Origin: Dentipellis sp. KUC8613
Taxonomy: Eukaryota > Basidiomycota > Agaricomycetes > Russulales > Hericiaceae
Assembly (NCBI GenBank): GCA_002286715.1
Contig: NSJX01000058.1
Location: 1 to 62,644, forward strand
Direction of reading: 5' to 3'
DNA length: 62,644 nt
A program made the position numbers and the translations under genes. The notes below the pieces were generated by a model. That model saw nothing but the letters and a program-made list of their open reading frames with translations. It made no database searches and had not been told where the DNA came from. Shown in pieces: positions 2,022 to 62,644 of this stretch (positions within the stretch are counted from its first letter, which is position 1; every line of letters starts with the position of its first letter).

Positions 2022-2328
2022 TGTACAGCATCCCTGTTCATGTGATTCTTGCTCTCATTCCCACCAGATCGCATCATCATTGCACCATTGCACTGTTTTC
2101 CTGTTTCGGACTACTTTACTCTCATGACCCACTAGTTTCCCCTGTCACATATAGTCCATGCCCCAGTAGCTAGTTCCCTAGACTGTCCTCTTCGTCTGTA
2201 CCCCATAGGTAGCTGGAATACACCTGCCTCTGTGCTGCACTCGTCTGTCACTCTCCTTCCTTGCTCTCTTAGTTGTTGTTGTGGTGACTTGGGTGGCAAC
2301 TCTTGTTCCCATTCCAGCGCCCTTGACA
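1936..2328 (+). mobile_element. 3' LTR of the truncated chromovirus
   Basis: The LTR starts TGTTACGG directly after a purine tract (AAAGAGGGGGTGA) and ends CCTTGACA. The 56 kb element has AGAGAGGGGGTGA before TGTCAAGG and ends CTTGACA. Near the 3' end both share GGTGACTTGGGTGG. At about 393 bp it is less than half the length of the 822-bp LTR at 56 kb, and it is strongly diverged. Confidence 0.75.
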
Positions 2329-2443
2329 TGTATAAATATCTGTGACTGAATGAAACTGTCTGTTTTTCAGCCCAATCTGACATGCAAAAGTTTTCAAGAT
2401 GTATTGCCAAATAAGTATATAAATGTATAAGTAGATAATCAGA

Positions 2444-5154
2444 CTAGAATTCATCTTCATCACTGCTTTGTCTCTTATTCTTATGATGTTGCCAATATTT
2501 TTCACCATAGTCTAATAGAAGCTCTTCATCTTTTTCAATCCTATGCTTTGCAAAAAGAGCAATTCTTTGATCTCCATTGACAGCAATCACTGAAAACCAA
2601 TTAACAAGTTTCAGCTTGTAATAAAAGAAAAGGTTCAACTCATTGCTTCAACATTGGTTTTCTGTTTGAGGCTTGGATGATTGAGATATCTTGTTTCATT
2701 GCCTAATTTCATTCCATCTATATAAGTCTTGAGATCATGATCAAAGCCATAGTTCAGGTCAAGATATTTCTCAATCACACTAAGATGCAATTGAGTTGAG
2801 AATAAATCAAAATATCAAATTTAATGTACTCAGAGTGTTGCTCATTGGGTATAATTTCACCTGTATACTCTACTAGGCATGTTAACCTTGTGAATAGAAG
2901 ATCAAGCAATAGTTTACCTCCAATGAAAGCACTTTTTCTAATTTTCTTAGATGCAAATGCACCTGACCCATATTTGGCTCTCTTGATGATAAGCCTCTAT
3001 AGCAACTTCAGTATCTTGTTATATAAATGACAGCTCATTACCTGTGGCAGATCAACTTGCATGATCATATTTGTACAAGATTTCATAGCTATTAAATTGT
3101 ATTAGCTTGATATTTTGTCCTAAAAAACTTCAAGATCACATCTGCATATACAATATGAATATGTAATCAAAATAAAATCACTGCTGCACTTACTTTGCTC
3201 CACAATTGCATAACTCAGGATCACATTCCTTCTGAATCCTTTGACAAGGACAATTTTCACTACTCTTGCAAGCAGCACCTTTGTTCATACTTTTGCCCTT
3301 GCTGTGACTTTTACAATTGCAACCTGTCCATCTCAATTGGCCTACACAGTGATGGACATCAACTTAATTCTAATATACATAAAAAACATTCATACACTTA
3401 GCACTGCACTGGCACATTCTTGAACAGTGTAGCTTGTTTACATAGCAAGGACATTCAGGACCACAAGGTCCAAAATGATTGCAAGGACCTATTCTGAAAT
3501 GTAATAATCAATCATCAGTTGTACCACTGAACAAAAATAATCAAGATTACTGTGCATATGTCATATGCCTTTCAGGTCCAATAGAATCCACTAGATATTA
3601 ACTATTAGCATACATAATGTCTTGAAGATCATGTTACTAACCAAATTCAATATTCATGTCTCTGTTCCTCACATGTCTGTCTGTAGATGTCTCTAATATA
3701 TTTTCATCTGGGAAAATTTGACACCGGTAATGGTATACCTTTGACAAAAAGTGAATACATTAAAGGATCATACAGAGATAAACTTACTTCAAAGCATGGT
3801 TTCTGACATATGATTGCTAGATTACATGGAGATTCATCTGGAATGATCTCCAACACTGTCTGAAAATCAGCAATCTCAGAATCATCCCATTCTGTCACCA
3901 TGACCTCAATACCCTAGAAAACAAAAGGATAAGAAAATACAATGTGATGTCTAGATACATGCAGCACTTGCATCCTGACTCTTCTCGATGTGCCGAAAAC
4001 AAGAGGTACAGCATGGATGCCAGCCATCCCGTGTTTGAAGATCCAAACTCTTGCTTTGGGCCTTTCGCGCACTTGGTTTTGCATGGGGGCCCACTTCACC
4101 AGAAGGTACATCAGGCAGGTGCTACACCACAGCATCTATGAAACTCACCATGCACAGGGCAATAAGCATGTATACAGCTCAAGTTTCCGCAGAATAGTGG
4201 CAGAAGCGAGTGAATTCTTCCCTTCAGATCACCTGCTCTGGGTACAAATGAAATATTAGGATGAGGATCAGGCGAGAGATCCGACAATGCAGCTCCGGGC
4301 CAGACAATCAGATCGCTAAGCCACATCAGTGTTGGTCGTGACACAGATGTGAACATGTGTTACCGCTGCATAGTGTCCCATAAGATCCCAGCTTCATTCC
4401 CCCTTCGCGCATTTGGAAGCAGGCAGAGCCGGTCAATCATGCTGATAGACAGTCCCTGACCGTGATACAATCGGCGGAGTGCCTCAAGCCGGATGAGCTC
4501 AACTACAGACAGGCAGGTAGACAGTAAGCGTGCATATCCATCATGAAGCCTAAAAGGATACTCACCGTCAGGATCCTTCTGCTCATGCTGCCATGCAAAG
4601 CCAATGTACCAATCTTTTGGCATCTTGGAGATGTAATCAAACATAGAGTCATCTGCATATGGGATAAATTGCAGCCTGTCAGAGGCTGCAGGGTCTTGCG
4701 GGTGTCTGGAAATACAGGTATCGGCAGGGGTGCAGCTTTCATAGGGTGTATGAGGCTGCACGGAGGTCCGAGTTATTGTATCGCAGACAGGAATATATGA
4801 CATCATCCTAGTACGCATGGTTATCACTGTAAGGCAGTCAGAGTCATCAGAGCGCGACAAGTAGTCGTCGTCAGAACCCAGTAGATCGTCCAGGTAGAGT
4901 GAATATCCAGAATGCAAGTCGTTGGAGCGCAGGGAAGCATACGGCCGGGCAAGCGAGTCAAGAGCTTGCAGAGCGTCTCGGCACCCCCAGGTATAGAATT
5001 CGGTCCACACTCTTTGATAGATTGAGATGGCCCCCGCCAGCAGTTGGTCGTCTTTGGGTATACCTGGCGTCGCGCTTGGATCAGCAAGCGTTTCCTCATC
5101 GTCAAAGGGTGTGGTGCTTGGTGCAGAGCTGTCCGTGAAGTTGTGTGAGTCCAT
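2444..5154 (-). CDS. EZH2-like SET-domain (histone H3K27 methyltransferase family) protein
   Basis: This is a many-exon gene read from 5154 down to the TAG at 2444-2446. Recognisable parts, in order, are: an N-terminal exon (5154 to about 4372); a Cys/His exon with CIHAYCPVHG (about 4165); a WHPCCTSCF segment (about 4030); WDDSEIADFQ and SPCNLAIICQKPCFEV (about 3885-3790); two pre-SET CXC clusters, CNHFGPCGPECPCY (about 3490) and CPCQRIQKECDPELCNCG (about 3240-3190); and a SET domain (about 2995-2450) with GEYTGEII, GNETRYLNH, VNGDQRIALFA and EELLLDY. This order matches E(z)/EZH2, the catalytic subunit of PRC2. Most introns are about 50 bp with GT-AG ends. The junction near 3120-3160 was not resolved cleanly and may hide an in-frame stop. 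The usual NHS...PNC of SET is NHP and lacks the cysteine, so activity is uncertain. The last 1.5 kb is much more AT-rich than the first 1.2 kb. Confidence 0.8.
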
Positions 5155-7747: not shown

Positions 7748-9633
7748 CTAGAGATAATATCTGAAATGTGGGTGTCTGCGAAGGTATGTCAGCCTGCCAT
7801 CCAGGCGGATTCTGACGGACACTCACCTGTCGCCGAGATCACCCAGCTCCTCCCCAAGCATGTTGCCCTCTTTCGCTCCTGCCTCATCCCCGACCTCTGC
7901 GGCCCTTGCATCCCTCAGCGCGTTGTCCCGCTTATACGACCACCACAATGCCGTGCCAGATACCAGCGCGATCACATAGCATGCGAGGTTGACGCCATGC
8001 CCTTGTACATAACGAGGGCCCCATTCGGCACGGTAGATCTGGCCGGAGACGGTTCCACCAATGCTGCCCATGGAGAAGATGAATCCCGTTGCGGCAGCGC
8101 GCTTATTCGAGCCAGCGACGTTGGACGAGAGCCACGCCCAGATGATCGAAATCGGGAGGAACCTACGGTGGTGGACGCCCACGTTAGGACTCTGGGAACA
8201 TGAGGAGAGAAAGCGAAGTACCCACATGAACATGATGAAGAAGAACATGACATAGCGCACGACGAGGTTCTCAACCGCCATGAGGACGATCAGTGCCACC
8301 ATCGTTATGCACACACCAACGATATAATGCCAGTACCACCGCTTATACCGGTCCGCAGTCCACCCGCCCACAAGCACGATCACAAACCCAAAGCCATACG
8401 GCGGGCACGCCATCAGGGTCGCCGACGTACCCTTGTATCCCAGGCCGGTGACCACGCTTGGGAGACTCAGGATGACGCTGTACACGGGGATGTAGGTCGA
8501 GATGTAGATGAGGCCCCAGAGGTAGGTGCGCCAGTCGGTAAAGGCGGAGATGATCTGCGAGCGCGAGAAACCCTCGGAGGCCTTGAGCGCGCGGTCGGCT
8601 TCGTTGGTGAGGATGATGATCTGGCGTTCTCTATCTGAAAGGAAGCCCGCCGTGTCGGGGTAGGAGACCATGAAGATCATCGTGAGGAGTCCGAGGCCTG
8701 CGGTGGTGCAGCCTTCGACGATGTAGATCCACCTTGCACAAGGCGATCAGCTCGCCGTATTTCCAAGAGGAAGTCGTCTTACCTCCAACCTTCGATGCCG
8801 TGAGCTCCATCAAGGGTGTGAATAGCTGTGGCGAGCAAACCGCCAAATGCGCCAGTCAGCTGTCCTTTCGAGTCAGCGCACTAGTCGGAAGGAAACAATA
8901 ATAATGTCCTCACAGATACAGAGCTGTACAGAACAGCGAATCGTCGGCCTTGTAGCTGTCGCGGATACCAACAACCAACTAGAGGCTCCTTAGTATCAAT
9001 TCTGAAGACAGAGCGCAGGATGTAATTACCCCAATAGACGATGCCAGGCAGGAATCCTGCCTCCGCAAATCCGAGCCAGAATCGTATCGCAATGAGCGCT
9101 GAAGGACTGTGAACCAGGGCAAACAGCGCGCATATAATACCCCATACAATCTTCACATAATCGAACGTTAGATAAGTAGACTTCATGGAGGATCTGGAGA
9201 CTCACCGTAAGTGCGGGTATGTAGAATCTCGGGCTGGTCCGTCTTAGAATGATATTCGATGGCGTCTCGAAAATGACATATCCAACGAAGAAGACGGAAA
9301 GCGCGGCGTTATACTGCGTGCTCGTCAGACCAAGCGCCTTGTACATGCCCAGTACTTTTGCATTGCCGATATTTGCACTGTTGTGGGAAGATGCGGTAAG
9401 TAGATCGAAGCACATGAAGTGAATATGACGCACCGGTCAATGTATGACGCGAGGTAGAGGATGACAGCGATTGGCATGATATGCCAGTCGACCTTCCTCC
9501 ATGCGCGTGCGATCTCCTCCTTCGAGAAATCAGCAAGTGTAGTCGCCGTGGGGCTCACATGCTCGTCCACCTTCGAATCCGAAGTCGTGGAGACTACTGC
9601 GGAACGAAGCGATCCCTTCTCGTCATAAGCCAT
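7748..9633 (-). CDS. MFS transporter, anion:cation symporter (Dal5-like) family
   Basis: This is a multi-exon plasma-membrane transporter of about 12 helices. The N-terminal cytosolic tail runs into WRKVDWHIMPI and YLASYIDR, a phase-2 intron, then ANIGNAK; this DRxNIGNA motif after helix 1 marks the Dal5/allantoate permease group. Later parts are FVGYVIFETPSNIILRR, WGIICALFAL, GFAEAGFLPGIVYW, FLSDRER and GGWTADRYKRWYW. The final short exon gives RHPHFRYYL with TAG at 7748-7750, the usual C-terminus of these proteins. Members carry allantoate, ureidosuccinate, nicotinate, pantothenate or small peptides; the substrate here cannot be read from sequence. All domains look intact. Confidence 0.9.
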
Positions 9634-53716: not shown

Positions 53717-55085
53717 ATGTCTCTCGCTGTTGATCATGCTCTTCTAGGGGCTCTTCTCACTGAATCTATCATGTATGGTACGTTGTCATCCTACGTCGAT
53801 GGCGAAACGGTCCTTACGATCGTTCATGCAGGTATCTGCGTGGCCATGAGCGCCGTCACTTGTCTCGTGACTCTATCTGCCAGGTCGGAACATGCTGTGT
53901 TGCCTCACAAATTTCTCCTTGTCACCTTGCTGCTTATGCTGATCCTGGCAACATCGGTATGTCGGGTTTCCTTATTCTGAGTTTCTGTCTTTGCTCAAGC
54001 AATGGCCATCGCGATGACCAGCACCTCAGCTTGTCTTTCGCCTGGGTTTTCGAGGGACTCATCCGGAAGGCTGGTATTCCTGGAGGGCCGTCTGCATACT
54101 TTGTAGACATGCGTACTCCTGTCCCCGTTGCGAAGAATGCCGTGCTACTCATCCAGGCATTGTTGGGAGACAACATCTACGTGAGCAAAGCGCCCGCTGA
54201 TGTACAGGAAGCCTGTACGCTGATATGCAGCACCAAGATCTGGCGCTGCTACATCGTATGGGGCCGGCGCAAGCGGATGATCATCGCGCCTGTGATCACT
54301 ATGATAGTAGCCTTAGGTACGTATCCTTTTATGCAGACTCTGCGATATTTTGACGTTAGGCCCGTAGTTTTCACCTGCATGTCCGACTACACTTTAGCGC
54401 GTACGAAAGACACTGTCTTCGATGACCCTGCCCGTTGGATCAAGGTGTTTTGTGCATTCATGCTTGGAACAATCGTGTATTGCAACGGTACGTCTTCTCG
54501 CCGTCACGGCATTGATACTCGGATCTGACTTGGATCAGTCGCGATTATCTGGAAGATCTGGAAGACCAGCCGAAGCACGAATTCGGCCACCATCGTCGTC
54601 ATCATTGAAACCGGTGCTCTCTACACTGCGAACCTAATCGTATTTCAGGTATTATATGCGATCAAGTCGACGGCACAGTATATCATTCTGGACTTGACTG
54701 GTTCACTCGTAGTACGTCTAGTCTCATTATGATCTGTTTACTTTGCTCATGAAATCCTGCGAACCAGCCCATCATCTTCTGCCTGATCATCCTACAAATC
54801 AAGTATCATCGCGCCAGTGAGACCTCCACGGCTGCGACAGCCTCCTCCAGTGGTTTGGGTAGTATCAGGCCTGCAACGTTCGCTACAATGGAGCACTTCA
54901 TGCCTCAGGGCCAAAAGAAACAGTGTGGCGACACCGGCACCATGATGACGGCCGCTACTATGTCGAGCCCCGGTTCTATGCACCAGCCTGCGGAAATCCG
55001 TGTCGAAATGCCGCAAAATGTGCAGTATGTTACACTCCCCCACGGATATCACAAAACTTTCACTGAAGTCCCACAAAAGTCCTAG
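53717..55085 (+). CDS. Seven-helix membrane protein, outlying copy F, C-terminus altered by a transposon
   Basis: Same family as copies A-E but 13 kb away. Exon 1 MSLAVDHALLGALLTESIMY and the same phase-1 intron. Then ICVAMSAVTCLVTLSARSEH, HLSLSFAWVFEGLIRKAG, IPGGPSAYFVDM, VAKNAVLLIQALLGDNIY, IWRCYIVWGRRKRMIIAPVI, ARWIKVFCAFMLGTIVYCNG, VVIIETGALYTANLIVFQVL and PIIFCLIILQIKYHRASETS. The tail (PQGQKKQCGDTGTM, EIRVEMPQNVQ) then enters AT-rich transposon DNA at about 55026, so the last about 19 codons up to the TAG at 55083-55085 come from inserted sequence. The membrane domain is intact, so function may be kept. Confidence 0.8.
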
Positions 55086-55742
55086 TTCTCCTGCAAAACT
55101 TCCACAAAACTTCCACAAAAGTTTATCAAAACTACCATTTAGTTTTACTAAACTTTCACTTTCATACAAATTACATGCAAGTAGTGTTTGGAAACTATGG
55201 ATGAAGTTTTGTGATAGCTCAGTGATACTCTGGATAAACTTTAGGAGTACTGTTGTGGGAGTGTAAGAGAACTTTAAGAGAAGCTTGTGCATATCAGATG
55301 ATGATTGACTTTAAAAAACAAACACTCAAAAATACACTTACACAGTAGTACTTTTGTAGTAGTTCTCCAGTACTTTTTCCATACTTTTGCAGTAGTTTTA
55401 TAATATTTTGTCAGTACTATTGTCATAGTTTGGCAGTAGTGTTGTAGTACTTTGTCAGTACTTTGTCATACTTTGTCAGTAGTCTGGTAGAAGTTTGTTG
55501 GTACTTTTATTGCACTTCAGCAGTAGTATTGTAGTAGTATTGTGGTAGTGTTTTCATACTTCTAACAAACTTTTGTAGTAGTTTTGTAAAACTATCTGGG
55601 TTCTTAGTCTCATATTCACTTACATGTGCTCACAGAGGCTGTCATATTTCTAGCTATTTCTGATGTATATCTACACCACATCATCAAAATACTCACATTT
55701 TCATCTTATCAGATGCTAACTTTACAGTACTTTCACTCCTAT
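55029..55742. repeat. AT-rich block with degenerate 11-bp units in inverted orientation
   Basis: Units of the type ACAAAACTTCC run on the + strand at about 55052-55160. Related units (AGTAGTTTTGT, AGTACTTTTGT) run in the opposite orientation at about 55330-55600. Composition changes sharply at about 55029. Position next to a KDZ transposase 3' end suggests this is the subterminal region of that element. Confidence 0.55.
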
Positions 55743-56155
55743 CTACTCCTCTTCTCCCTCATCATCCTCATCCTCATCATCCTCATCATCACTACTATTA
55801 TCATCCTCTGACTCATCTTCATCCATATCTTGATCTCTTGTGCTTGCCTTTGATTGTTTAGTCATGATTTTTTTGCTATGGAGAAAAAGCATAACATGGA
55901 TGAACCAGTCAAAGTTGGCTGCTGTCATGCGGCTGACAATTCTTTCAAATCCTCCTAGCCAAGCATTAAGTTGCTCACATGCCTGGAAAAAATAGATATT
56001 AATACATACATTTATGATATAGCAGAATCAAATACTTACTTGAGTATTGAAGGCTCTCTTGTAATAAGGTCTTCCATCTTGATCATGGTCTTGCACCACC
56101 AGATTGGGAGCTGAACCATTGAGTGGTGCAGGATTACACCATTTACGGCACAGAT
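55743..56155 (-). pseudogene. KDZ-type transposase, C-terminal end
   Basis: Two exons remain. The first (56155 to about 56040) reads NLCRKWCNPAPLNGSAPNLV and VVQDHDQDGRPYYKRAFNTQ. An intron of about 57 bp with GTAAGT and TTCCAG follows. The second reads ACEQLNAWLGGFERIVSRMT and AANFDWFIHVMLFLHSKK, then an acidic Asp/Glu tail with stop at 55743. The CEQLNAWLGGF..I..RMT..NF.WF.H.MLF block is the usual C-terminus of basidiomycete KDZ (CxC-type) transposases. The N-terminal part would lie at higher coordinates but is separated at exactly 56156 by the LTR of the Gypsy element. Codons are AT-rich compared with host genes. Confidence 0.75.
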
Positions 56156-56977
56156 TGTCAAGACTGGCCTAGAACCAATGAAACAACCACCCAAGTCACC
56201 ACCGGTGACAAGGCGAGCAAGATGAGAGTTAGAGAATTGAGCGAGAGTGCCGGCAATGTGCAGAGTGCAGTGCAGCTGGTATTCCAGGTACAGTATGATA
56301 CAGACGAGATTGACAGTCTAAGGGACTATGGACGAGGGCATGAGGGTAGATACACTGTACGGGAAACACCGGAGGGGATCAGGTTATCGTAGATAATCAG
56401 TAACAGGACGGAGGGGCTTCGGGGAGTGGTACAACGAGGTCTAGGGACTTGGGGAAACATGTGATAAATAGTAACAGATCAGATCAGATAAAGGGAAGAG
56501 TGACCAACGACTTCCGAGATGATGTGCGAACACTAAGTCAATACCGAGCGACCGAGGATGTCTCTCCTCGGTCCCAGAAGCTAGGATCTCGGTCCGAGAG
56601 CTCGGTCCTCGGTCCGAGATCTCGGTCTACACCGCTTAGTCATCGGACCGAGATGTCGGTCCGAAACCTCGAAAACATCGGTGCTCGGTAGCACTGAAAA
56701 GGCGTCGTCGGTGTTCTCCTCGGTCCGAGGAGCTCCAAGGAGCCAAGGGATTCGACCGAGACATCGGTCCTCAGTCTAGGGTCCTCGGTCCGAGGTGCTT
56801 AGTTAGCAGACCGAGACATCGGTCCGAAATCTCAGAAATGTCGGTGAAGAGAATGGGAAACGTTGGTGTCGGTGTTGGTGCTCGGTCACGGGTTTGGTGC
56901 TCGGTCTCGGTGCTCGGTGCTCGGTGGTCGTTGAAAGGAGTCGAGGAAAGTGATGAGATAAGGAGTGATCCTTGACA
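56156..56977 (-). mobile_element. 3' LTR of Ty3/Gypsy chromovirus (822 bp)
   Basis: Ends TGTCAAG...CTTGACA form a 7-bp inverted repeat and the canonical TG...CA. The first 419 bases on the + strand match the partial LTR at 62226-62644 with 8 differences. The interior is full of CGGTCCGAG-type motifs. A block of about 50 bases at 56629-56683 recurs at about 56798-56845. The last 92 bases also encode the end of pol. Confidence 0.93.
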
Positions 56978-56990
56978 TCACCCCCTCTCT
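56978..56990 (-). other. Polypurine tract of the chromovirus
   Basis: On the - strand AGAGAGGGGGTGA directly precedes the 3' LTR, the position of the plus-strand primer. The relic at 1.9 kb has nearly the same tract. Confidence 0.75.
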
Positions 56991-59900
56991 AAGGCGCGCT
57001 TTCTCCTGGAGCGCATGGTGGGCATGGACAGTGTCGAGGTACAGCAGTCCTCGCAGGTTCGGTGGTCTCGGGGCTCTGGGGTGACGCTTGTAGAAGTCGG
57101 TGATGGCACCACCGGCATTCGAGAGCATGGTTCGGGGACGCCACTGGTTCTCGGAGTCGGGGTATCCAGTCCACTTGACAAGATATTCAATGCCACGTTT
57201 GTTGCGTGTCAGCCGGGCATCCAGGACCTTTTCGACTTCATATTCTTCTTCGCCCTCAACTAGCGCTGGGGCCGGGGTAGAAAAATTCGGGCCGTGAGCG
57301 TCGATTTCTTTGTAGGGGGACAGGAGCGAAGCATGGAATACTGGGTGAATGCGCCAAGTCGGAGGAAGCTTCAGTCGGTAGGTGACAGGACCGATGACAT
57401 CCGAGATCTCAAAGGGACCGAGGTACTTTGCTGCCAGCTTGGCCTTCGGCCGAGTGGTCTTGACGTTTTTGCCATCAAGCCAGACCTTGTCACCCTTCTT
57501 GTAGCGGACCGAGGTCTGAGTAGAGTCACCTCGGGTACGCTTCATGATATCGGCCGCGACCTTGAGACTCGCCTGGAGGTCCTCTCTGATTTGATCCAGA
57601 TGTTTGAACCGTTCCTCGACCGAGGGCACTGGGGAATTGACTTTGACGCTAGGAATTGCAACCGGGACGTAACCGAGGAGCATTTCGAACGGGGAGCGAC
57701 CTGTGGCACTATGGGACTTGTAGTTATGCGAGAACTCGGCAAAGAGGATCCACTTGACCCAGTCATCCTGGCGGTAGTTACAAAAGGCGCGGAGGTACTG
57801 CTCGAATTCTTGGTTGAACTGTTCTGACTCACCATCGGTCTGAGGGTGGTAGGCCGTGCTCAGGGCCGACGTGATGTGTAACTTGTCAAAAACTCCGCGC
57901 ATGACCTTGCCAGCGTACTGAGGTCCTTGGTCCGAGATGAGACGATCCCAAAGTCCGTAGTGTTGGTAGATCTTGTCGATGAGGATGTCCACAGTCTCGT
58001 CACTGGTTATCGTCTTGGTGCAAGGGGTGATGGTGACGTGCTTTGTGAACCGGTCCACGACGACACATACTGAGTCGAAACCCTCACAGGGTGGGAGGTC
58101 CACGATGAAGTCCGAGGTAATATCTTGGAACGGTCGGGCCGGGATCGCGTTCGGGATGGTTTCAACGTGGGGCCGATGAGTTCGGTTCTTGGTGGCTTGA
58201 CAAGTAGCACAACCATCGACATAGTCGCGAATAAAGACCGACATACCGGGCCACCAGTAATTCCGAGTTACCAGTTCATAGGTCTTGTGGCGACCGGGGT
58301 GTCCTGCCTGCGGCGTGTCATGGTGCATCTTGACAATGTCTCGTCGGAGCTCCTGGTCGGCAGGGACATAGACCTTGCCTCGAAAGAGCACTAATCCATC
58401 TTCGAGGTTCCACTCCTGTAAGCTCTTTACAAGCGACCGAGGACCATTGTTCAGGATAGCATCCAGGGCATTGACAACCTCGGTGTCCTTGGTTTTGGCA
58501 TCTCGGATGCGTTGCCGGAGAGTAGTGTCACCGACCAAGGTGACGGCCGCAGGGCGGACTGCTCGGACTTGGAAAAACTTGGGGTCGAGGAGTACATGCT
58601 CAGTGTTGTCATCCTCCACCCCCTCTCTATGATCCGGTTGCCTCGACATCAGATCTGGTCAGTGATGAACGCCAGGCTTGTGCACCAAGGTAAAGTCAAA
58701 CCGAGTCAGGAAAAGTGCCCACCGGGCTTGCCGACGACTGAGTTTCTGGGCAGTCTTGAAATACTCAAGGTTTTTGTGGTCGGTCCAGATCTCTACAACA
58801 TGTGGGCTACCTTCCAGGTAGTGGTGCCAGGCTTCCAGGGCACGGATGATAGCGAGGAGTTCCTTGTCATAGATGTCATAGTTACGCTTGGGCTCGGAGA
58901 GTGCTTTGGACAGGTACGCGACAGGATGCCAGAGGTCATCCTCGGCACGTTGAGACAGAATCCCGCTGATGGCAAAGTCGGAGGCATCAACTTCTACCAG
59001 GTAAGGCTTTGTTGGATCCGGCATCAGCAATACCGGTGACGAGGTAAAGGCGTGCTTCAAACTGTCAAAGGCGGTCTGGCAGTCCGATGTCCAGTCCCAG
59101 ACATGGTCTTTCTTGGTCAAGTCAAAGAGGGGCCGAGCTACCTTGGAGAAGTCCTGAATGAAACGTCAGTAGAAGTTGCCGAAGCCGAGGAAGGCCTGGA
59201 CATCTTTGACTGTGCGGGGAACAGGCCACTCGGCAATGCCAGCGACTTTGACGGGGTCCATGGCAAGCTTGTCGTGCGAGACAATGAGACCAAGGTACTC
59301 GACCGAGGATTGCTCGAAACTGCATTTCTCGGGTTTCAAGAACAAGTCATTCTCTCGGAGGCGTCGGAGCACCTTCTGAACAAGAAGTCAGTGCTCGGCG
59401 AGGGTGTCGGTGAAGATTAGGATGTCGTCCATGTAGATAATGACTTTACCGGAGTCGATGAGATCCTTGAAAAGCTCGTTCATCATGGCTTGGAACATGG
59501 CCGGTGAGTTCATGAGACCAAAAAACATGACGAGTGGTTCAAAGAGTCCTCGGTTTGTCTTGAACGCAGCTTTCCACTCGTCACCCTCCTTGATTCGGAC
59601 ATTGTTATAGCCCCAGCGGACATCCATCTTGGTAAAGATCCGAGCACCCTTCAGTTTGTCGACGATCTCGGAGATGAGGGGAAGAGGGTACTCATTCTTC
59701 ACCGTGCCTTTGTTCAGTTGCCAGTAATCCTGGACTGGGCGTAGCTTCCCATCCTTCTTTTTGACAAAGAAGAAAGGGCTTGCCATCGGAGATTTGGACG
59801 GTCGGATGTAGCCTTTCTGAAGGTGGTCGTCAAGGAATGTATCGAGCTCGGTCTGCTCGGCAGGTGACAGGGGATAAACTTTACAAGACTTGGGTTCGAA

Positions 59901-60982
59901 ATCAGGTTTCAAGTCAATGGCATGGTCCCATGGTCGTCGGTCCGGGAGGCATTCCGAGGTAGCCTTGTCAAAAACATCTCGGAACTCTCGGTAAGGCAGT
60001 GGCACAAGTTGCTCGAACAACTTGTCTACGGCGGGGCCAGCTGCGCGTTCAGCGAGCTTCTGGGCATTGGTAAAGCCTGCACAGATGGACGTCGGTCCGG
60101 GAACTGCTCGGTCACTGTCCTCGGTCCTGTCTCCTTGGTGACCGAGGAGTCCTGCGAGACGAAGGCCCTCAGTCTGCCACTCCGGGGGAACTTCGGGGTG
60201 TTTGTCCTCATCCTCAGTGAACAGTGGTACATTGTAGGGGACCAAGAGTGGTCGGGCCGAGTGAAGTCGTGCACCTTGGACTCGTCGGGCCGAAACCACA
60301 AACTTGGGGACCGAGGACAACATCGGATGTCTCGGTCCGATGGCACAACGCACCTCGGGCTCGGACCGAGGAGAGGGGACTTGGTGACGCTCGACACGAG
60401 CCTCCAGGTTAGTGACCGGCGGTCGATGCAGCTTACACGAGGGTGGACAGCGTGTCATGTCTACTTGTCGGGCCGACCAGTTCACCTCGGGGTTGTGTTG
60501 TTCCAACCAGTCGGTCCCGAGAATAAGGTCGAAGTCACCAATGTCGGCCACAAAGAATTCTACACGTTCCTGGTGGTACGAGTCCGAGTCCCGGGAGTAG
60601 ATTCGGAGGTTTTGCACTGTTGTGTAACGGACGAGACCCATGATATTCTCGGAGTTGTCAACATTACGAATCGGGAACGGGTGTTTCAGGGGATTCAGTG
60701 TCAGGTTGTGTTCGGTAGCGAACCGAGGGTGAATTACGAGCCCTTCGGCTCCACTGTCCAGCAGTGCTTCAGCATCGATTTGTTTTTCTGTGATTTGTCC
60801 GATGAGCTTGGTTCGTAGTGTTATCGAAGGCGTCTGACGGGTACGGGTAACCGGGGACATGCGCAAGGACAAAGGATAGGATTTCTCACTGGGTTGCGCC
60901 AGTGATGACAGTACAGCAAACCTATTGGGTGAAGCCACAGAAAAACGGGTGCCTCCCACAGACGACGCGGCTGGGGGGCAAT

Positions 60983-60991
60983 CTAAAAATT
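60983..60991 (-). promoter_or_regulatory. Candidate -1 frameshift site between gag and pol
   Basis: On the - strand AATTTTTAG: the gag frame reads AAT TTT TAG. A one-base backward slip on the five-T run reads TTT then TTA GAT TGC (F-L-D-C), exactly the pol frame. No stem-loop was checked. Confidence 0.5.
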
Positions 60992-62104
60992 CTCGCGTGC
61001 CACGAGATCCTTCAACGCTGCTCTCGCCTCCTCTCTCTCCTCGGACCCTAGGGTGCAAAGCATGGAGGCCAAGGTGGCAACGGCCGAGACACCGAGAGTC
61101 ATGGTCGAGGGGTTCGCCGGTGGGACTGAGGACAAAGGTGTCGGTGTCGCGATGTTAGACTCCAACGCACCAACCCGGGGACTCTGGTTCAGTGGGCAGT
61201 TGAATGACATATGTCCCTTCTGCCGGCAGCGGAAGCAGGCACCCTCCTCGGAGAGACGCTGGCGTTCCTGCTCGGACAGCTTGGCCAGATTCGGGGAACG
61301 CTGCTCGGTCCGGACGGGGACCGGGGACATGTTGAAAGACATCAGTGCTCGAGACTGCCCGGTCGACCGAGGGGCCCGTGCTTTCTGCTCCCGCTGGACT
61401 TCGAGCCATTGGGCGTTGCAGTCACGCGCTCGTTCCTTCCATTCCTCCAGGGCCTTCGGCATCGGGTAGGTCATCATACACTTCTCCAGGAGTGCGCCGT
61501 TGAGACCCTTCTTGAAGAAATGGACTAGCGCGATCTCGTTGTAGCCGGTCCTCGGTACGAGTGCCTCGAACTCGGTGATGTAGTCCACGACCGGTCGTAC
61601 ACCCATGCGAAGACTCTCAATATCGGCACGGGCTTCGGCCGAGTCATCGAGAGGTTTGAAGTCTACTCGGAAGCGGGTGAGGAGCTTGGCAAAGGTGTCG
61701 AACCTCGGAGTGATCAATGTTTTCTTGCTCGCCAGGAGCACCTCATTGGTGTCGTCGTCGGACAGGATTTCGTCACCTCTTTGGGTTGCCCAGATGCCCG
61801 CAATTGGGCCCCGGCACAGGTCTAGAAACAGGGAGATCTTCGCCTCATCAGAGGCATATTTGACCTTGTTGACTTTGAGGAAGAGACGGATCCTCGTCAT
61901 GAACTCGGCTGACCAAGCTCGGTCACCGAGGAAAGGCTCCGGTTTTACACCGATTTCATTGGTCGTGGGCGGGGTTAGGGTCACAAGGGATGACATAATG
62001 TCAACTGGAGGGATCGGAGGATCGAGGTCTATGATCGGGGTGGTCAATGGTCGGGGGCGTGGATCCCGGCAGCAATGGGCTTCCCAGCCCCGGCAATGCT
62101 GCAC
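60983..62104 (-). CDS. Chromovirus Gag
   Basis: Capsid and nucleocapsid polyprotein, frame open throughout. The likely start is Met at 61996 (MSSLVTLTPPTTNEIGVKPE); the upstream Met at 62104 adds 36 residues of unusual composition. The capsid-like region includes FLGDRAWSAEFMTRIRLFLK, RFRVDFKPLDDSAEARADIE and VDYITEFEALVPRTGYNE. One CCHC zinc knuckle, CFRCRQKGHMSFNC, lies near residue 290. The C-terminus is ALKDLVAREN followed by TTT TAG at 60983-60988. The pol frame is -1 relative to gag and overlaps it by about 75 bases. Confidence 0.9.
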   Translation of the reverse strand: MQHCRGWEAHCCRDPRPRPLTTPIIDLDPPIPPVDIMSSLVTLTPPTTNEIGVKPEPFLGDRAWSAEFMTRIRLFLKVNKVKYASDEAKISLFLDLCRGPIAGIWATQRGDEILSDDDTNEVLLASKKTLITPRFDTFAKLLTRFRVDFKPLDDSAEARADIESLRMGVRPVVDYITEFEALVPRTGYNEIALVHFFKKGLNGALLEKCMMTYPMPKALEEWKERARDCNAQWLEVQREQKARAPRSTGQSRALMSFNMSPVPVRTEQRSPNLAKLSEQERQRLSEEGACFRCRQKGHMSFNCPLNQSPRVGALESNIATPTPLSSVPPANPSTMTLGVSAVATLASMLCTLGSEEREEARAALKDLVARENF

Positions 62105-62213
62105 GATAGAGGTCTGTGATGATCAGGGTTTGCAGGGTTAAAGAGGTGTTCGTGTAGAGAGGTTGTGGTGGAAATATTGCGTCGCGCGAGTGGAGGTGAG
62201 GTGGGTGTAGGAG

Positions 62214-62225
62214 AGACTGTCAAGG
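62214..62225 (-). promoter_or_regulatory. Candidate self-complementary primer-binding site
   Basis: The bases right after the 5' LTR read CCTTGACAGTCT on the - strand. They do not start with TGG, as a tRNA 3'-end site would. TTGACAGTCT is the exact complement of AGACTGTCAA in the LTR (- strand, 56319-56310 and 62389-62380), fitting Tf1-type self-priming. Confidence 0.55.
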
Positions 62226-62644
62226 TGTCAAGACTGGCCTAGAACCAATGAAACAACCACCCAAGTCACCACCGGTGACAAGGCGAGCGAGATGAGAGTT
62301 AGAGAATTGAGCGAGAGTGCCGGCGATGTGCAGAGCGCAGTGCAGCTGGTATTCCAGGTACAGTACGATACAGACGAGATTGACAGTCTAAGGGACTATG
62401 GACAAGGGCATGAGGGTAGATACACTGTACAGGAAACACCGGAGGGGATCAGGTTATCGTAGATAATCAGTAACGGGACGGAGGGGCTTTGGGGAGTGGT
62501 ACAACGAGGTCTAGGGACTTGGGGAAACATGTGATAAATAGTAACAGATCAGATCAGATAAAGGGAAGAGTGACCAACGACTTCCGAGATGATGTGCGAA
62601 CACTAAGTCAATACCGAGCGACCGAGGATGTCTCTCCTCGGTCC
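62226..62644 (-). mobile_element. 5' LTR of the chromovirus (cut by window end)
   Basis: 419 of the expected 822 bases are present. It starts TGTCAAGACTGG and aligns without gaps to 56156-56574. Because the far end is missing, the target duplication cannot be checked. Confidence 0.93.

Follow-up and report, generated by a model that had tools for sequence, protein, structure and literature searches.

CpG-biased decay of transposons is already known in basidiomycetes, where it has been described for Microbotryum, Ganoderma and Rhizoctonia and labelled both as an action resembling repeat-induced point mutation (RIP) and as deamination of 5-methylcytosine (5mC). In published work, 98.7% of the methylated cytosines of Ganoderma sinense lie at CpG and its transposons are more methylated, with a CpG preference of the mutations and TGA stops as their outcome (PMC4457147), repeats of Marasmius oreades are methylated in ~0.75 of reads per CpG (PMC9674265), CG methylation is reported for Pleurotus (PMC5974365) and CpG changes are commoner near repeats in Rhizoctonia solani (PMC4014442). 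Other publications propose methyl-cytosine deamination, with a Masc2-like Dnmt1, for the CpG signatures of basidiomycetes (PMC4352252) and attribute to these fungi the Dnmt1 and Rad8 classes of methylase, without RID/Masc1 (PMC5073141). The present analysis concerns a long terminal repeat (LTR) retrotransposon of Dentipellis sp. KUC8613, situated at the end of the first 62644 bases of contig C126 (hereafter the window, within an assembly of 34.1 Mb and 171 contigs). The host is an agaricomycete, and one open reading frame of the window has a full-length match of 89% identity to a Dentipellis fragilis protein; a tRNA-ligase exon matched a protein of Dentipellis sp. KUC8613 at 55% identity over 49%. 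The element is decaying at CpG, and the CpG loss among the copies of its LTR is associated with the CpG content of the DNA surrounding them.

What is added here to the known decay is a comparison within one family by place of insertion; no study was found, among open-licence papers, that relates the members of a single fungal LTR family to the CpG content of the DNA flanking them. Such a family, distributed over CpG-null and CpG-normal places, can separate RIP from 5mC deamination by sequence alone, RIP predicting that copies are hit for being repeats and regional methylation that they are hit only by location. The target at this locus, CpG, is that of the other Basidiomycota; the differences are that the decay of one family tracks the place of insertion and that there is no TpCpG bias of the kind cited for Pucciniomycotina. 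With RIP of the Neurospora type the locus shares C-to-T transitions in repeats on both strands, but CpA is not preferred here and several repeat copies are largely spared; that process hits repeats wherever they are located, whereas the loss found here ranges from 0/41 to 29/60 among the copies and follows the flank. As in 5mC deamination, the change is directional, from CpG to TpG or CpA, and recurs at the same sites.

CpG losses in the LTR pair, in pol and in the adjoining DNA

Both LTRs are on the minus strand. The 3' LTR of the element (56156..56977) is complete, with a length of 822 bp, termini TGTCAAG...CTTGACA on the + strand and homology between copies that stops at both borders. The 5' LTR (62226..62644) comprises 419 of the 822 bp, counted from its + strand start, before it is interrupted by an assembly gap; the 2356 bases past 62644 are all N, and 403 bases of the LTR pair thus fall outside the comparison. 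Alignment of 56156-56574 with 62226-62644 reproduced what had been read by eye in the original prediction, since 8 of the 419 columns differ, without gaps, and every difference sets a CG against a TG or CA. Differences were found at 8/48 sites in CpG context and at 0/371 other sites (Fisher p=1.7e-8). CpG is the majority state at all 8 sites (15-19 of the 18-19 lettered rows among other LTRs) and, therefore, every difference is interpreted as the loss of a CpG; five losses fall in the left LTR and three in the other, the loss being unique to the element at three sites and shared by 1-3 other rows at five. This directional loss, in excess over other sites, is the pattern expected from deamination at CpG, as had been proposed.

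The pol frame was likewise said to be broken only by TGA codons, at least two of them standing where arginine is expected, which holds for the 3 in-frame stops of the examined 1256-codon segment: all are TGA, and the aligned relatives in the same genome carry arginine at these positions in 2/3, 3/3 and 3/4 cases. The DYW site, for which a change from arginine had been proposed, likewise has arginine in 3/3 aligned relatives of the same genome.

The complete LTR starts at the right edge of a CpG-null flank (55044..56155) in which two CpG (55930, 56146) remain in 1.1 kb. The border of this flank on the other side is sharp, with 20 CpG in 54708-55043 vs two in 55044-56155. The observed/expected ratio (o/e) of CpG is 0.09 in the flank of the window element vs 1.01 in the adjoining LTR, and two other copies, with 500-bp flanks, give 0.17 vs 0.90 (C170) and 0.17 vs 1.03 (C111). 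The flank of the window element, so much poorer in CpG than the adjoining LTR, was thus emptied before the insertion, or lost its CpGs much faster.

CpG loss and neighbourhood among the copies of the LTR family

A search of the assembly gave 43 matches to the LTR part and 44 to the rest of the LTR, from which 20 regions were taken and 23 rows cut. Among the 21 other LTR rows, 10 are solo LTRs whose 5-bp target-site duplications can be read at either border (identical in 8/10 and mismatched by one base in 2/10, both mismatches being CpG transitions), four end at a contig end, and the remainder are truncated or interrupted, or are C161, which runs into internal sequence on one side. CpG loss was scored at 74 CpG columns present in at least half of the rows and tabulated for 21 rows (without C76b and C153y), 20 of them having a flank.

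CpG loss is strongly and inversely associated with the CpG o/e of the flank (Spearman -0.86, 20 copies of this table). With pooled flanks (n=20, repeated with 17 rows without C109b, C77 and C153x), the coefficient is strongest for 1-kb flanks (-0.83), followed by those of 500 bp (-0.79), 200 bp (-0.68), 300 bp (-0.66) and 2 kb (-0.61). Non-CpG divergence of the same 20 copies has no significant relation to flank o/e over the flank sizes (p 0.10-0.44; Spearman -0.20, p=0.39 at 1 kb). When the copies were assigned by hand to low-flank (10) and high-flank (9) groups, the median CpG loss was 0.22 vs 0.08 (p=0.0017), and non-CpG divergence gave p=0.24. The idea that LTR elements decay as such was consequently not borne out, as copies of the same repeat beside CpG-normal DNA have retained most of their CpGs, with losses of 3/74 in C109a, 0/41 in C161, 5/74 in C135 and 6/74 in C127. 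Two copies depart from the trend, C134 (flank 0.86, loss 0.23) and C77 (flank 0.39, loss 0.19).

Relatedness of the copies was considered as a source of the match with the flanks, using a tree of 19 rows (without winB, C109b, C76b and C153y) built from 664 non-CpG columns. The relation persists in the 18 phylogenetic contrasts, with r=-0.84 at 1 kb (0/3000 permutations equally strong) and, for flanks of 500 bp, 300 bp and 2 kb, r=-0.80, -0.68 and -0.58 respectively, which makes relatedness an unlikely source, albeit on a weakly supported tree. The copies that cluster there with the window LTR are C109a and C161, the splits having supports of 55 and 76; the window LTR, C109a and C161 have flank o/e of 0.09, 1.09 and 0.98 and CpG losses of 0.27, 0.05 and 0.02 respectively. 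CpG sites also change repeatedly: none of the 59 informative CpG sites fits a single step (mean 3.2 steps) and 11/30 informative non-CpG sites do, with 202 tree steps on 158 CpG sites vs 152 on 664 others, a comparison tilted toward the non-CpG sites, from which the tree was built.

The contexts of private variants were tabulated in 20 of the 23 rows (without C109b, C76b and C153y). Private transitions per site amount to 48/157 at CpG, 9/73 at CpA, 10/118 at CpC and 8/113 at CpT, in agreement with the earlier statement that the pattern is unlike the CpA pattern of ascomycete RIP. Private CpG losses per site, in the same 20 rows, are 22/54 at CCG, 17/66 at TCG, 4/17 at GCG and 5/20 at ACG, with no TpCpG bias. 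It had also been suggested that mutation since insertion is almost wholly of the CpG kind, and this cannot be maintained for the family, in which 48/133 private variants of the 20 rows are CpG transitions; in the 16 closer rows (additionally without C77, C114, C153x and C170) they make up 59/117. Many non-CpG substitutions among other copies had been named beforehand as evidence against the prediction, and this objection applies in part.

CpG-poor DNA and the probable origin of the decay

The CpG content of 500-bp windows was surveyed in DNA selected by transposon or methylase matches, so that the genome was not sampled at random. In the analysed stretch and the loci of LTR copies, most of these windows have CpG o/e of ~1 and a minority 0-0.2; at the loci of other matches, a main group near 0.6-0.8 is accompanied by a low group. 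The 47 CpG-poor windows (G+C 0.40, TpG/CpA o/e 1.42, CpA o/e 1.42, TpA o/e 0.79), compared with 351 CpG-normal ones (G+C 0.57, TpG/CpA o/e 1.16, CpA o/e 1.15, TpA o/e 0.69), bear the signature of CpG loss, and CpA is not depleted in them. RIP of the CpA type was rejected, given this and the lack of a CpA preference in the family.

The cytosine-5 methylase domain PF00145 was found above cut-off at 5 places in the assembly, which were not classed by a tree. Candidate host methyltransferase genes, as 5mC deamination requires, thus appear to be present. One of them, L040, may resemble the DNMT5/Rad8 class; L041 and L043 we take to resemble DNMT1 with a BAH domain, an assignment that is weakly backed, BAH having been matched below cut-off in L041 (E=0.019) and not at all in the examined stretches of L043. 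Two of these methylase-like genes lie in CpG-null DNA, at L041 1-3180 (C22, ~530 kb; 8 CpG in 3180 bp) and L043 661-3160 (C128, ~631 kb; 4 CpG in 2500 bp). Arginine codons in the six open stretches of this DNA are 5 CGN and 32 AGR, and in the C-terminal stretch of L043 just beyond the CpG-null zone 14 CGN and 3 AGR.

We consider it likely that the decay results from 5mC deamination in regionally methylated chromatin, at a rate set mainly by the place of insertion. A Ty3/gypsy chromodomain element would have landed next to DNA already emptied of CpG, its CpGs would be methylated there and would deaminate to TpG or CpA faster than other sites change, and local chromatin would mainly set the rate, so that the same LTR retains most CpGs wherever the DNA around it is CpG-normal. 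We infer that the mark would be 5mC, placed by a host enzyme of DNMT1 or DNMT5 type, and that the state of the place preceded the element. This account fits the published data for related fungi, and a decay which tracks the neighbourhood favours 5mC deamination in methylated regions over a RIP that recognises repeats. If it holds genome-wide, insertion dates drawn from LTR divergence in these fungi ought to be based on non-CpG sites, because the rate at CpG sites would be set by the neighbourhood.

An improbable but still noteworthy alternative is that repeats are recognised by a RIP-like process which converts C to T within CpG, a process suggested for other basidiomycetes. CpG-biased C>T changes in repeats are termed RIP for Ganoderma sinense (PMC4457147), and those of Rhizoctonia solani are described as RIP-like (PMC4014442). 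The near-complete retention of CpG in LTR copies with CpG-normal flanks (C109a, C161, C135 and C127), the occurrence in CpG-null stretches of methylase-like genes as well, which may themselves be unrepeated, and the preference for neither CpA nor TpCpG argue against it. Repeat-targeted RIP was set aside as the lead explanation on the ground of the spared copies, although one duplicate of normal CpG content, L010/L017, keeps it alive. That the element itself draws methylation which spreads into the flank, the poor flank being a result and not a cause of the insertion, agrees with a relation between LTR and flank that is tightest at 0.5-1 kb and gone at 3 kb; it is rendered quite unlikely by flanks with a far lower CpG o/e than the LTR from which methylation would have spread, in the three cases given above, and by the CpG-normal flanks of insertions with similar non-CpG divergence. 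CpG could also be hypermutable everywhere, with the flank match reflecting which subfamily landed where, and the excess of CpG transitions in the CpG-normal duplicate, the similar CpG shares of private variants in both flank groups and the weak support of the tree are all in its favour; the persistence of the relation in the non-CpG-tree contrasts and the different states of closely grouped copies in different places leave it very little probability.

Several results weigh against 5mC deamination governed by place. The duplicate L010/L017, of normal CpG content, has CpG transitions at 12 of its 17 differences, a pattern that would agree with duplication-induced methylation. In the long pair L012/L025, CpG is involved in 45/57 differences and the direction is opposite, the copy with more CpG retained having a flank o/e of 0.0 on one side and 0.9 on the other. 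Other repeats, taken as a test in 53 non-independent pairs, gave a mixed outcome: the difference in decay is related to the flanks at 300 bp (rho -0.41, p=0.002) and 500 bp (rho -0.30, p=0.027), and 1000-bp flanks gave rho +0.21 (p=0.14). Of the 47 signed pairs, 32 (300 bp), 28 (500 bp) and only 18 (1000 bp) show the stronger decay in the copy whose flank is poorer. Within the LTR family, the relation fades with flank size and is not significant for pooled 3-kb flanks (Spearman -0.28, n=20), the tree supports are mostly low (32 to 87), and CpG loss in the low-flank group is unrelated to non-CpG divergence (rho 0.24, p=0.51). The CpG share of private variants is similar beside poor (30/87) and rich (17/45) flanks, winB apart, these figures being sums over the 20-row count with the hand-made groups; recurrent losses are not private and so recurrence accounts for part of this similarity, but the contrast is still weakened. 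Lastly, repeats with CpG o/e of 0.00 in both copies (L025 6311-6706 with L033 219-616, and L027 3329-3690 with 7972-8334, at 76-82% identity) suggest that some poor zones could have inherited their lack of CpG; in these repeats, the CpG-null state may be a family trait, through parallel decay or amplification from a decayed source.

The ends of contigs C109 and C5 (L010 6778-9298 and L017 189-2146) have in common an LTR copy, the flank downstream of it and adjacent DNA with 97-98% identity, and would represent either a segmental duplication or two haplotypes remaining in the assembly.

A broader version of regional decay is tentatively put forward, as a possibility on the doubtful side, in which sharply bounded CpG-eroding compartments predate the transposons and drive transposon or gene DNA alike to a CpG-null state, the two methylase-like genes being situated inside, with open exons that encode arginine by AGA/AGG, and in which the chromodomain integrase could steer the element in. 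If true, one LTR family would serve as a reporter of compartment-specific mutation.

A second CpG-null segment of the window lies at 2201..3980 (3 CpG per 1780 bp, G+C 0.36). Open stretches occur within CpG-null zones elsewhere as well (L026 4473-4811 and L018 3882-4758). Among the eight stretches from such zones scanned with Pfam, L026 matched Helicase_C_2 (E=2e-20) and L018 matched DUF6570, both above cut-off, L018 also matched a Helitron-like N-terminus slightly below cut-off, and the two from the window's own flank matched no domain above cut-off.

Anatomy of the element and other repeats

The internal region of the retrotransposon (56978..62225, minus strand) has a CpG o/e of 0.90. Its pol is represented by two open stretches on the same strand, one with a retroviral protease (RVP_2) and the start of the reverse transcriptase (RVT_1) at 59388..61058, the other with Integrase_H2C2, rve, SH3_Tf2-1 and a C-terminal chromodomain at 56886..58649, and the order of the Pfam domains is thus RVP_2, RVT_1, Integrase_H2C2, rve, SH3_Tf2-1, Chromo. 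Judged from this order and the LTR ends, the element is classed as a chromodomain Ty3/gypsy retrotransposon (chromovirus). The order of protease, reverse transcriptase, integrase and chromodomain, the TG...CA LTRs and the 5-bp target-site duplications (read in other copies, the right flank of the window copy falling in the gap) are those of Ty3/gypsy chromoviruses; the only oddity noticed is a set of 18 hexamers in the LTR (window 56543-56925), CTCGGT 13 times and ACCGAG 5 times, where shuffled versions of the LTR have a mean of 0.4 and 0.3 per 822 bp is found elsewhere in the window. Together with the overlapping CGGTC/GACCG, these hexamers cover 21/57 of the LTR CpGs. A 4.2 kb internal query gave, beyond itself, a single match of 95% identity over only 244 bp, and the remaining nine internal-region matches have 68-76% identity.

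Additional LTR retrotransposons are located elsewhere in the assembly. A second LTR family, L045, comprises two identical 221-bp LTRs and two further near-full copies; its copy on C150, between flanks of o/e 1.08 and 1.00, has CpG at 3/15 differences, too few to use.

Three copies of the first family's LTR (L013 7168, L027 6730 and L028 6680) are broken at a sequence starting with (C/A)AATTCTGATTC, two of these breaks falling on the identical LTR position, 220. Diverged parts of the LTR (best pieces 86-87% identity) are also found in both orientations, ~0.5-2.3 kb apart, in foldback-like pairs at C100:314862-317179, C163:44790-46124, C16:25134-25723, C108:235514-236096 and C43:19786-20251.

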